In this document: in pieces, positions 6,771 to 17,302 of the stretch
Position numbering within the stretch: the stretch's first letter is position 1
Layout of the letters: the number at the start of each line of letters is the position of its first letter
From: Bacteroidales bacterium
Lineage (GTDB): Bacteria; Bacteroidota; Bacteroidia; Bacteroidales; Lentimicrobiaceae
DNA length: 64,000 nt
Direction of reading: 5' to 3'
NCBI GenBank assembly: GCA_024636955.1
Contig: JAGXGB010000011.1
Location: 1-64,000 of the forward strand
The notes under the pieces: generated by a model
The model's input: the letters and a program-made list of their open reading frames with translations, nothing else
The model's database searches: none
What the model was told of the DNA's origin: nothing
Position numbers and translations under genes: made by a program

Positions 6771-8207
6771 ATGTTAAGAGGTGATAATAAGAAAAGCTAC
6801 TATAAATATAGAAAAGACTATCCGGTTTTTGTTTACAATAGCTTTCATTATTCTTTTTCGGGCACTAAAATAAGCTTTGGATTCGAATTCATAATTGAAC
6901 CGAATATTATTTTAAGGCCAATTTCCTCAATTGCGGTATCACATATTCCCCAAAACAGGGAAATTGTCCTCCCCTTGATTGAAAATTTAGTATTTCAGAT
7001 AGGGATGATTGAACTTGTTAGTTATTGGAAAGCTACTTGCTCTCCAATAATTTTGGTTAAGGCAGGTGCCCTTTCTAAAGAGCAGACTGAATGGTGGAAA
7101 AGTCTATATTATAAAGGGCTTGGTGAGTTTTTCTATCTGAATTCGTTAGATGTTAATTATTCTGACTTTGTAAATATAGAATCAGAAGGTAAACAGTTTC
7201 ATCCGGATACTTCTATGGAATTCCTTGATGAGTACATTGTCCCTGTTGGGGGAGGAAAAGATTCAGCTGTTACACTTGAATTATTGAAGAGGAGTGGAAA
7301 GAATATTCACCCACTTATTATGAACCCTCGTGGTGCAACATTAAATACAGTTACAGCAGGAGGGTTGCAAACTGATGATGTTATTATTATTGAACGAACT
7401 ATTGACCCTGAATTATTGAAATTGAATGAAAGGGGTTTCCTTAACGGTCATACACCATTCTCGGCAATGCTGGCATTTTATACTCTGCTCGCATCGGCTC
7501 TCACCGGATTCAAGCAAATAGCGCTTTCAAATGAATCCAGTGCAAACGAAGCAACAATCCCCGGAACTGACATAAACCATCAGTATTCAAAATCAGTTGA
7601 GTTTGAAAGAAACTTCAGGCAATATACCGCGGAGTATATAAATAGGAATTTCAATTATTTTAGCTTCCTAAGACCCTTTAATGAATTGCAGATAGTTTCT
7701 GTGTTTGCAGGGCTTGAACAGTATCATCAAGTATTCAAAAGCTGCAATGTTGGAAGCAAAACTGATTCATGGTGTGGAAGTTGCCCCAAGTGCCTGTTCA
7801 CACATATTATGATGTCGGCATTTAAAGGTATTAATTATGCCAATAGCATTATCGGGAAGCCGATGCTTAACAATCAGGAAAACACAAAATACTTTGATGA
7901 ATTGACAGGGTTTTCAGCTATCAAACCATTCGAATGTGTTGGTACTTTACTCGATGTGCAAACAGCAATGCTTATGATTGTTAAGAATGAGAACAGTATG
8001 GCTCCAGAAACATCAGATTCCCGTCCATTTCTCGTACAAAGATTTATGCAAAAGTATAAACCAGGTTTCCAGATTCATGAGGATGGCGACCATATAAATA
8101 AAATAAACCTTCATTCATCTGACAAATCAGAACATTTTCTTGATGATGAACAGTTAAGTATTCTATTGGAAGGATTTAACACAAACAACCACGACCACTT
8201 AAATTAA
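6771..8207 (+). CDS. murL: MurL-like UDP-MurNAc-L-Ala-L-Glu epimerase (PP-loop type)
   Basis: PP-loop-like VPVGGGKDSAVTLELLK, LSNESSANEATIPGTDINHQYSKS, SWCGSCPKCLF; directly upstream of a MurD-like ligase. Confidence 0.82.
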   Translation: MLRGDNKKSYYKYRKDYPVFVYNSFHYSFSGTKISFGFEFIIEPNIILRPISSIAVSHIPQNREIVLPLIENLVFQIGMIELVSYWKATCSPIILVKAGALSKEQTEWWKSLYYKGLGEFFYLNSLDVNYSDFVNIESEGKQFHPDTSMEFLDEYIVPVGGGKDSAVTLELLKRSGKNIHPLIMNPRGATLNTVTAGGLQTDDVIIIERTIDPELLKLNERGFLNGHTPFSAMLAFYTLLASALTGFKQIALSNESSANEATIPGTDINHQYSKSVEFERNFRQYTAEYINRNFNYFSFLRPFNELQIVSVFAGLEQYHQVFKSCNVGSKTDSWCGSCPKCLFTHIMMSAFKGINYANSIIGKPMLNNQENTKYFDELTGFSAIKPFECVGTLLDVQTAMLMIVKNENSMAPETSDSRPFLVQRFMQKYKPGFQIHEDGDHINKINLHSSDKSEHFLDDEQLSILLEGFNTNNHDHLN

Positions 8208-8228
8208 ATTGCATATCAATAAAGGAGT

Positions 8229-9599
8229 ATGAAGGAATATCTAAAGTCATTGCTTAGTGGTAAAAAAATCCTGGTTTTAGGTTATGGTCGTGAAGGCAGA
8301 TCAACTTTAAAACTGCTTTTTGAAGTCATTCCTGATGCCGACATAACTGTAGCAGATAAAAACATTACTGCTTTTAATGACGACCTTGTGATTAAATCAT
8401 TGTGCCCTTCTATTCAATCCGGTAATGACTATTTGTTTAATCTTGAGAAGTTTGATGTAGTAATAAAATCGCCTGGCATTTCACTTAATCAGGACATACA
8501 TAAATTTAACAGAGAAGCTATTACTTCCCAAACCGAATTATTTCTGTCGTTTTACAAGAAGCAAATAATAGGCATCACTGGCACAAAAGGTAAAAGCACT
8601 ACCAGCAGCTTACTTTACCATATTCTCAGATCTTATTCATCTGAAGTAGTGATGGGTGGAAATATTGGCATTCCGCTTTTTGATCTTATTGGTGAGATTT
8701 CACCCAGTACAAAGATAGTATGCGAACTTTCCTCACACCAACTTCAGTACACACGAAGTTCCCCAAAAATCAGCATTCTGCTAAATATTTTCCAGGAGCA
8801 CCTTGATCATTACGATTCCTTCCTGGCATATCAGCTCGCAAAGTATAATATTGCCCGTTATCAGCAACCTGAAGATTTTTTTATTTATAATTCAGCTGAT
8901 AAACATGTTAATGAACTCATTCATAACAATCCGGCAAACGGAGAAAGACTGCCTTTCAGCCATACTAATATGGAAGGGAATGGCATAATAGTTAATGGAA
9001 ATGACATTATTCTCACCACCTCAAAATTCAGTAAGAGGATTTTACCTTTGGATTTCAAGTTACAGCTAACCGGAGAACACAACCGAAGTAACGCTATTAT
9101 TGCTGCTGCAGCCGCTACATTGTTAGATATCCCAACATCAGTGATTGAAGAGGCTGTCAGCTCATTTGCTCCTTTGGAGCATCGCCTTGAATTTGTTGGA
9201 AACTATGGATTAGTCAACTATTACAATGATTCAATCTCTACTATTCCCGAATCAGCAATAGCTGCTATTGAATCGCTCAAACCTATTGACACCTTAATAC
9301 TTGGTGGATTCAACCGGGGAATTGATTACTCTACACTAATTGACTACCTGAAAAATGGAAATGTTAAACAAGTAATCACCACCGGACCGGCAGGACTACA
9401 CATTTATGAACTTATTAGAAACAGTAACAGCCTACTTCAAGTCTTTCACTATGATAAATTTGACGATGCAGTTAAAAAGGCTGTTGAAGTAACTATACCC
9501 GGTGGCATCTGCCTATTGTCGCCGGCAGCATCCAGCTACAATGAATTCAAGAACTTCGAAGAAAGAGGTAAGCGGTTTAAGGAGCTTGTTGCGCAATAG
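8229..9599 (+). CDS. Mur ligase, MurD/MurD2-like (UDP-MurNAc-L-Ala--Glu ligase)
   Basis: IIGITGTKGKSTTSSLLYHIL ATP-binding motif; GYGREGRSTLKLL; YYNDSISTIPESAIAAI; LEHRLEFVG. Confidence 0.88.
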   Translation: MKEYLKSLLSGKKILVLGYGREGRSTLKLLFEVIPDADITVADKNITAFNDDLVIKSLCPSIQSGNDYLFNLEKFDVVIKSPGISLNQDIHKFNREAITSQTELFLSFYKKQIIGITGTKGKSTTSSLLYHILRSYSSEVVMGGNIGIPLFDLIGEISPSTKIVCELSSHQLQYTRSSPKISILLNIFQEHLDHYDSFLAYQLAKYNIARYQQPEDFFIYNSADKHVNELIHNNPANGERLPFSHTNMEGNGIIVNGNDIILTTSKFSKRILPLDFKLQLTGEHNRSNAIIAAAAATLLDIPTSVIEEAVSSFAPLEHRLEFVGNYGLVNYYNDSISTIPESAIAAIESLKPIDTLILGGFNRGIDYSTLIDYLKNGNVKQVITTGPAGLHIYELIRNSNSLLQVFHYDKFDDAVKKAVEVTIPGGICLLSPAASSYNEFKNFEERGKRFKELVAQ

Positions 9600-15883: not shown

Positions 15884-17302
15884 TCAGATTCTTTCCAGCA
15901 AACAAATATTCTCCACATGACTTGTGTGTGGGAACATATCAATGGGTTGTGTTCTGGTTATTTTGTAGCTGTCGGTCATTAGGGCAATGTCCCTTGCCTG
16001 TGTAGCCGGATTACAGCTCACATAAACGACTTTTTCGGGTTTTGCGTCGAGTATACTCTTCACAACTTTTTCGTGCATACCGGCTCTCGGAGGGTCTGTA
16101 ATAACCACATCAGGTTTGCCATACTTACTCACAAACTCCCCGGTTAAAACTTTTGCCATATCACCTGAAAAGAAGCTCGTGTTTGTAATTCCATTTAATT
16201 CAGAGTTAAGGTGTGCATCAGCAACTGCTGCCTCAACATATTCAATACCAACTACTTTAGCGGCATCACGTGCAATAAAGTTTGCTATTGTGCCCGTACC
16301 TGTATAAAGGTCATAAACTAATTCTTTTCCAGTTAATTCCGCAAATTCTCTCACAAGCTTATACATTTTCTCTGCCTGCTGCGGGTTGGTTTGGTAAAAA
16401 GATAACGGCCCTATCCTGAACTTCAGATCTTCCATTTCAGCAGTTATAAAGGGCTCACCTTTATAAAGCACTGGCTGCAGATCATGAATAGTATCATTAT
16501 GCTTTAGGTTTATCACATAGTATAATGATGTAATGCCTGGGAACTCAGTTGCCAGAAACGCCATTCCATTCTCAATAATTTCATTATTATCAACTCCAAA
16601 CACCATAATAACCATCAGATCATTGCCCGCATTTCTGACTATAACGTTTCTAAGATCCCCTTCAAACTGGCGGATATTATAGAAAGTATAGCCTGCTGAT
16701 TTAGCAAATGATCTGAGCTTGTTTCTTATTTCATTAGTAGGCTCTGTTTGAAGATAACAGGTTTCGATATCAAGCACTTTATCAAACATGCCGGGTATAT
16801 GAAAGCCTAGTGCATCCCGGTTAATTGTTTCAGCCTGATTCCCTATTTCTTCAGCAGTTAACCACCTGAAAGCAGAAAAGGTATATTCAAGTTTATTGCG
16901 ATAATAATAGATATTATCAGATGGTAGAATTGGTAAGATTTCAGGGAATTCAAGGTGACCAATTCTTGAGAAGTTATCAAAAACCTGCTTCTGCTTATAC
17001 ATAAGTTGATCAGAATATTCCATATTCTGCCACTTACAGCCACCACATACACCAAAGTGCTGGCATAACGGAGTGGTACGTTTCTCAGAATATTTATGGA
17101 ACTTAATAGCCCTTCCTTCGTAAAAGCGGCGCTTCTTTGATACTATACGCACATCACAAACATCTCCCGGTACAACAAATGGAATAAATATTACCATATC
17201 ATTGTGCCGGGCCACTGCATTACCTTCAGCTCCGGCATCAAGGATTTCAACATTCTCAAGTATAAGGGGTTCAGTTTTCTCTCGTTTTCTCATAATATTC
17301 AA
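15884..17302 (-). CDS. 23S rRNA (uracil-5-)-methyltransferase RlmD/RumA family
   Basis: TRAM-like N-terminus, CGGCKWQNMEYSDQLMYKQ, LYTGTGTIANF, ITDPPRAGMHEKVV, VYVSCNPATQARD. Confidence 0.93.
   Translation of the reverse strand: MNIMRKREKTEPLILENVEILDAGAEGNAVARHNDMVIFIPFVVPGDVCDVRIVSKKRRFYEGRAIKFHKYSEKRTTPLCQHFGVCGGCKWQNMEYSDQLMYKQKQVFDNFSRIGHLEFPEILPILPSDNIYYYRNKLEYTFSAFRWLTAEEIGNQAETINRDALGFHIPGMFDKVLDIETCYLQTEPTNEIRNKLRSFAKSAGYTFYNIRQFEGDLRNVIVRNAGNDLMVIMVFGVDNNEIIENGMAFLATEFPGITSLYYVINLKHNDTIHDLQPVLYKGEPFITAEMEDLKFRIGPLSFYQTNPQQAEKMYKLVREFAELTGKELVYDLYTGTGTIANFIARDAAKVVGIEYVEAAVADAHLNSELNGITNTSFFSGDMAKVLTGEFVSKYGKPDVVITDPPRAGMHEKVVKSILDAKPEKVVYVSCNPATQARDIALMTDSYKITRTQPIDMFPHTSHVENICLLERI

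Follow-up and report, generated by a model that had tools for sequence, protein, structure and literature searches.

Predicted replacement of MurI and canonical MurD by a MurD2/MurL pair in Bacteroidales, with a MurD C-terminal domain retained in the dcw cluster

Introduction

A gene pair encoding a MurL-like protein and a MurD-family ligase in a Bacteroidales bacterium (Lentimicrobiaceae; assembly GCA_024636955.1) raises the question by which route this organism introduces D-Glu into its peptidoglycan. The pair lies in a stretch of 64,000 nucleotides of contig JAGXGB010000011.1, which is called the window here. In Xanthomonas oryzae, biochemical work established MurD2 as an L-Glu ligase and MurL as an ATP-dependent L-to-D epimerase (PMC8788868). 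This route has been reviewed in Gamma- and Alphaproteobacteria and in Actinobacteria (PMC8788868, PMC5808125), and our full-text literature search for MurL together with Bacteroidetes yielded no relevant paper. The original prediction for the window held that L-Glu is added first and epimerized later, thereby by-passing or supplementing MurI/MurD.

The murL-murD2 locus

The two predicted open reading frames are present with a spacing of 21 bp (Table 1). Both start with ATG and are co-directional, and they probably form an operon. As had been claimed, the pair is located outside any dcw cluster: the dcw cluster of the same genome (G000; 3.2 Mb, 93% complete) sits on a different contig. The order of the two genes is shared with X. 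sacchari, in which an annotated murL on a plasmid record overlaps with the murD behind it. Among the 80 best MurL loci, 12 had no MurD2 in the fetched stretch; the arrangement of the others is given in Table 1. For one of the fused proteins an AlphaFold2 model was obtained with a pLDDT of 89.7 and a pTM of 0.65. In two further genomes, G591 (921 aa) and G490 (885 aa), the MurL match and the MurD match fall in equally long frames of one contig; the MurL frame of G517 has 949 aa.

Table 1. Features of the murL-murD2 pair in the window, and fused homologues in other genomes
Feature	Position	Strand	Basis
MurL homologue, 478 aa	6771..8207	+	NF041275 E 1.8e-70; 34% identity to X. sacchari MurL; AlphaFold2 pLDDT 90.4, QatC/QueC fold matches
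PP-loop GGGKDS of MurL, residues 160-165, predicted ATP-binding motif	7248..7265	+	invariant in 42 homologues; aligns with TtuA/MnmA PP-loop
Cys325-x9-Cys335-x2-Cys338-x2-Cys341 of MurL, QueC-like metal-site candidate	7743..7793	+	four Cys invariant in 42 homologues
Intergenic gap murL/murD2	8208..8228	+	21 bp; MurD2 3' of MurL in 64/80 homologous loci, fused in 4 more
MurD2-type ligase (predicted L-Glu-adding), 456 aa	8229..9599	+	TIGR01087 325.5 bits; signature residues; tree with X. sacchari MurD2 100/98
MurD2 P-loop GTKGKS, K120 for canonical N	8580..8597	+	K in 69/69 Bacteroidales MurD2 and X. sacchari MurD2; N in E. coli MurD
Glu190 of MurD2	8796..8798	+	position of X. oryzae MurD2 E197 / E. 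coli D182
Ile336 of MurD2	9234..9236	+	position of E. coli K319
Arg363 of MurD2	9315..9317	+	position of X. oryzae MurD2 R358 / E. coli K348
MurL-MurD2 fusions, one open frame, 911-976 aa	L115:4977-7709; L129:4920-7706; L172:4878-7805; L185:4911-7673		

Family and predicted fold of MurL

The assignment of the 478-aa protein to MurL is borne out by an HMM match to the NCBIfam MurL model NF041275 (237.7 bits), which stays below the cut-off of 700 bits of this Xanthomonadales-specific equivalog model. By its sequence, the window MurL is thus placed outside the Xanthomonadales equivalog and within the wider MurL family only. No Pfam family was matched over the Pfam cut-offs, and BLASTP aligned the protein with the annotated X. 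sacchari MurL over 323 aa (E 2e-54). The GGGKDS motif pointed out in the original prediction was recovered, and the region of the four cysteines gives a weak match to the Pfam family QueC (E 0.024).

When the MurL sequence alone was searched against the PDB, nothing significant was found, and a profile search matched only the PP-loop of TtuA/MnmA (TtuA E 0.0012). The AlphaFold2 model, built with 42 homologues, reached a pTM of 0.92. With this model as Foldseek query against the PDB, QatC was the best match (E 1.5e-4 and 5.9e-4), followed by QueC (E 2.4e-3, TM 0.58 on QueC) and TtuA; MnmA ranked lower. The predicted fold of MurL is that of a QueC-like ATP-pyrophosphatase, with which it shares the PP-loop and the four-Cys pattern. 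This is a likeness of fold and not of QueC activity: sequence similarity to QueC/QatC is 12-16%, MurL has an extra N-terminal beta region, and its substrate and reaction differ. QueC adenylates a carboxylate. For MurL, a carboxylate adenylation step has been proposed in the epimerization, and AMP is produced (PMC8788868). From the QueC-like fold, the carboxylate adenylation by QueC and the AMP made by MurL, we infer that MurL is a QueC-like carboxylate-activating enzyme, with a putative adenylation site placed by the predicted fold.

Specificity residues and phylogeny of the ligase

The ligase scores over the cut-off of the canonical murD model TIGR01087. It has the family features of E. coli MurD, including the P-loop lysine, the carbamylated-lysine position K198 and H183, whereas the canonical Asp182/Lys319/Lys348 glutamate site is absent and Glu, Ile and Arg are found instead. 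Mutagenesis of X. oryzae MurD2 showed that its stereospecificity is set by E197 and R358, which correspond to D182 and K348 of the E. coli enzyme, and the K319T variant of E. coli MurD accepts L-Glu (PMC8788868). All four residues of the window ligase (E190, I336, R363 and K120) recur in X. sacchari MurD2. The signature agrees in all 22 MurD2s of a set of relatives and in all 69 Bacteroidales ligases of a second set. In contrast to the MurD/MurI route of E. coli, this genome combines D182E, K319I and K348R equivalents with the lack of murI, and the predicted product would need later epimerization.

By maximum likelihood, a branch with a support of 100/98 separates the MurD2s of Bacteroidales and X. 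sacchari from canonical MurD, and a grouping of the MurD2s with the dcw MurDs was rejected (p-AU 0.016). The tree holds one MurD2 reference (X. sacchari). We regard this clade as good but not final, because of the long branches that lead to X. sacchari and E. coli.

Sources of D-Glu in the genome

No glutamate racemase gene murI (TIGR00067) was found over the cut-off in G000. Since this genome is 93% complete, the absence of murI is argued mainly from the order-wide pattern described below. The only relative of Asp/Glu racemases in G000 is a YgeA/aspartate-racemase-like protein that matches TIGR00035 over the cut-off (L011:1437-2132, contig C48), which may supply a trickle of free D-Glu. D-amino-acid aminotransferase (TIGR01121) gave no match over the cut-off in 41 genomes. 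The only murD over the cut-off in G000 is the window copy. The second murD looked for in the dcw cluster was found there in part: not as a full MurD, but as a C-terminal remnant of the canonical enzyme. Because a second full MurD is lacking elsewhere in the genome, the by-passing of MurI/MurD fits this genome better than their supplementing.

Distribution of MurL and murI

Of 18 congeners, 16 have MurL; the other two genomes are 78% and 83% complete. Among the 22 other families tested, MurL was detected in 5. An even sample of the order comprised 247 genomes, of which 86 have MurL (60 of 173 genera; 2 of the 86 are fragments) and 148 have murI over the cut-off. Not one genome had both and 13 had neither (Fisher p 5e-53, a descriptive value as the genomes are related). 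A scan of GTDB species gave at least 584 MurL-encoding stretches, and the best 80 of these all belong to labelled members of the Bacteroidota except for one that is named only 'uncultured bacterium'. In an even sample of the phylum, MurL was found in the window's genome only; this shows little beyond rarity elsewhere, because that sample has few genomes of this order. Judged by gene content, the known MurD2/MurL pathway has a far wider distribution than previously described and would operate in about one third of the sampled species of the order.

Several genomes deviate from these patterns. A short MurL remnant, an 81-aa frame with a stop, lies on contig C54 of G486 (16971-17090). This genome and G587, of the same genus and both 99% complete, have a full-length canonical MurD, no murI over the cut-off and no intact MurL. 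MurL and murI over the cut-off are likewise missing from G535 and G601, two nearly complete genomes of the order.

A predicted MurD2/MurL route

We consider it highly probable, on comparative sequence evidence, that the pair carries out the second step of cytoplasmic peptidoglycan synthesis in the MurD2/MurL order, replaces MurI and canonical MurD in this organism, and has left the dcw murD cut to a selected C-terminal domain of 182 aa. As in the Xanthomonas enzymes, the window MurD2 would add L-Glu, and MurL would then convert it to D-Glu in an ATP-dependent reaction. The original proposal of ligation before epimerization is supported by the MurL match, the lack of murI, the MurD2 clade and the L-Glu signature. 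The two protein families, the specificity residues and the absence of murI are common to this system and X. oryzae MurD2/MurL (XOO_1320/XOO_1319; PMC8788868, PMC5808125). The Bacteroidales system differs from the Xanthomonas pathway in its host, in a MurL that is 34% identical, in the fusion of some pairs and in a dcw cluster that keeps canonical MurD, either in full or as a C-domain.

Alternatively, the ligase could be an ordinary D-Glu-adding paralogue of MurD, with MurL acting elsewhere (e.g. on another glutamyl peptide) and D-Glu coming from the YgeA/aspartate-racemase-like protein. This would agree with the passing of the canonical murD model by MurD2, with the TIGR00035 racemase of G000 and with a MurL homologue that has no adjacent ligase on the Pseudonocardia plasmid pPaSha1, yet the E/R/I signature of all 69 ligases, the clade with Xanthomonas MurD2 and the complete mutual exclusion of MurL and murI across the order sample all argue against it. 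Moreover, racemase matches of the TIGR00035 kind occur in only 6 of the 17 MurL-positive genomes of the genus. E. coli has ygeA. Its murI is essential all the same, according to the title of Doublet et al. 1993 as cited in PMC5808125, and we consider the ordinary-paralogue explanation extremely improbable.

A solo MurD C-terminal domain in the dcw cluster

Between mraY and ftsW, G000 has an ORF of 182 aa outside the window (L010:12396-12944, minus strand, contig C45). It comprises the end of the MurD middle domain and the C-terminal domain, corresponds to positions 270-439 of TIGR01087 and matches Mur_ligase_C (PF02875) only. It is the same domain as in Mur ligases, but it stands alone as its own gene, and from its sequence it lacks the domains needed for ligation. 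None of the papers searched describes a solo MurD C-domain.

Such a remnant was found between mraY and ftsW in 33 genomes (the contig of G008 ends within mraY), often overlapping ftsW or only a few bases away from it. Exactly 182 aa were counted in 17 copies and 169-185 aa in the rest. The 33 genomes consist of 31 of the 86 MurL-positive genomes, G003 (78% complete, MurL not seen) and G032; no murI-positive genome has the remnant (Fisher p 9e-17). The other MurL-positive genomes have a full-length gene (45), a gene cut by contig ends (3) or no canonical MurD (6), or, in G486, a MurL remnant with a full MurD. Three apparent truncations (G517, G464 and G506) were discarded as full-length genes cut by contig ends, and G619 was discarded as a frame-split murD in a murI-positive genome. 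G032 (98% complete; L257:1923-2558) has the remnant and a dcw cluster, and no MurL, MurD2, full MurD or MurI was detected in it, although such genes may be missing from its assembly.

All 33 remnant frames are open. In the G000-G008 pair, changes at codon positions 1, 2 and 3 amount to 0.23, 0.09 and 0.52, and the NG86 dN/dS is 0.05. The codon-position pattern recurs in other pairs, in which NG86 dS is saturated. Because of this saturation in most pairs, selection is argued from the codon-position differences and one usable pair. Eight core residues (D328, W338, I351, V372, P423, F441, V445 and L448) are 94-100% conserved, and the HN..N motif and the equivalents of K319 and K348 are missing in many copies. 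These substitution patterns indicate that the remnant is under purifying selection while its catalytic residues decay. Relative to MraY, the remnant evolves about twice as fast (2.4) as the C-domain of full-length MurD (1.1-1.5). The start Met of 26 of the 33 remnants corresponds to an internal Met, residue 267 in the frame of G001, that is kept in 37/37 full-length MurDs of the MurL clade and in 14/15 of murI-positive genomes.

A tree of MraY, FtsW and MurG requires 16 changes between full and truncated murD, with 9 independent pairs on starred branches. In the C-domain tree with all 33 remnant rows, a single clade was not rejected (p-AU 0.33). One clade was rejected with eight less divergent rows (p-AU 0.019), as was one clade of G000/G003/G008 plus G561 (p-AU 0.0097), both groups having been chosen after the trees were seen. 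From these trees, murD was probably truncated several times, the number being uncertain.

Full-length canonical MurD in MurL-positive genomes

A full-length canonical MurD with a D-Glu-type active site is present next to MurD2 and without murI in 45 MurL-positive genomes (e.g. G001, L089:1495-2838, minus strand). The full-length dcw MurDs examined have intact catalytic residues and retain K319, K348 and, apart from a Glu in G004, D182. At matched distance, the N-terminal and middle domains evolve about one third faster relative to MraY in MurL-positive than in murI-positive genomes (1.95 vs 1.46), and the rate of the C-domain is about equal (1.34 vs 1.22). Simple replacement does not account for the full-length MurD of these 45 genomes.

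Possible reasons for the retention of the C-terminal domain

After MurD2/MurL took over from MurI and canonical MurD, the dcw murD would have been left as a C-domain, and three other accounts of this gene were weighed. It would be a decaying, functionless pseudogene if the lost HN..N, K319 and K348 positions, the doubled rate and the six MurL-positive genomes without any canonical MurD were taken on their own. A pseudogene should not, however, remain open in 33 of 33 copies of about 169-185 aa while identity to the G000 copy falls to about 29%, nor keep its eight core residues and the dN/dS of the G000-G008 pair, with second-position changes far below third-position changes; this account is quite unlikely. 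The constant location between mraY and ftsW and the close spacing to ftsW would also suit a stretch kept only for the expression of ftsW/murG, through a promoter or translational coupling in the 3' part of murD, rather than for its protein. As selection acts on the amino acids and a full deletion would equally join mraY to ftsW, we deem this very unlikely. A single truncation that spread by transfer or lineage sorting is compatible with the shared start Met and with the single clade of all 33 rows; it is nevertheless unlikely, given the two smaller clades that were rejected and the changes required in the MraY, FtsW and MurG tree.

The reading that we prefer is a truncated but selected C-domain. 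In Thermotoga maritima, MurD binds MurG and MreB (PMC6420597), which makes a docking role of the MurD tail plausible. The retained domain may be a structural or docking part of a Mur/divisome assembly, a guess on which we are evenly divided. A more elaborate scenario seems possible but slightly on the doubtful side: the MurD C-domain of Bacteroidales would have a second, non-catalytic job, either docking or organizing the MraY-FtsW-MurG side or partnering MurD2/MurL, and the catalytic domains would have been deleted repeatedly after the MurD2/MurL takeover, the tail being kept from the conserved internal Met, perhaps through a pre-existing short isoform. A stand-alone MurD C-domain in the division operon makes it directly testable whether Mur ligases have structural roles within a Mur complex.

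Implications and distant homologues

With the predicted distribution, the MurD2/MurL route, so far tied to a handful of genera, would reach about one third of the sampled Bacteroidales species. Because MurI is absent there, MurI inhibitors should spare MurL-positive Bacteroidales, and MurL inhibitors might act on them. The predicted fold of MurL gives a testable mechanism. Homologues of MurL with 27% identity, annotated as hypothetical proteins, are also encoded on Pseudonocardia plasmids (e.g. L265:3959-5359 on pPaSha1 of P. alni) and are possibly epimerases for another substrate.
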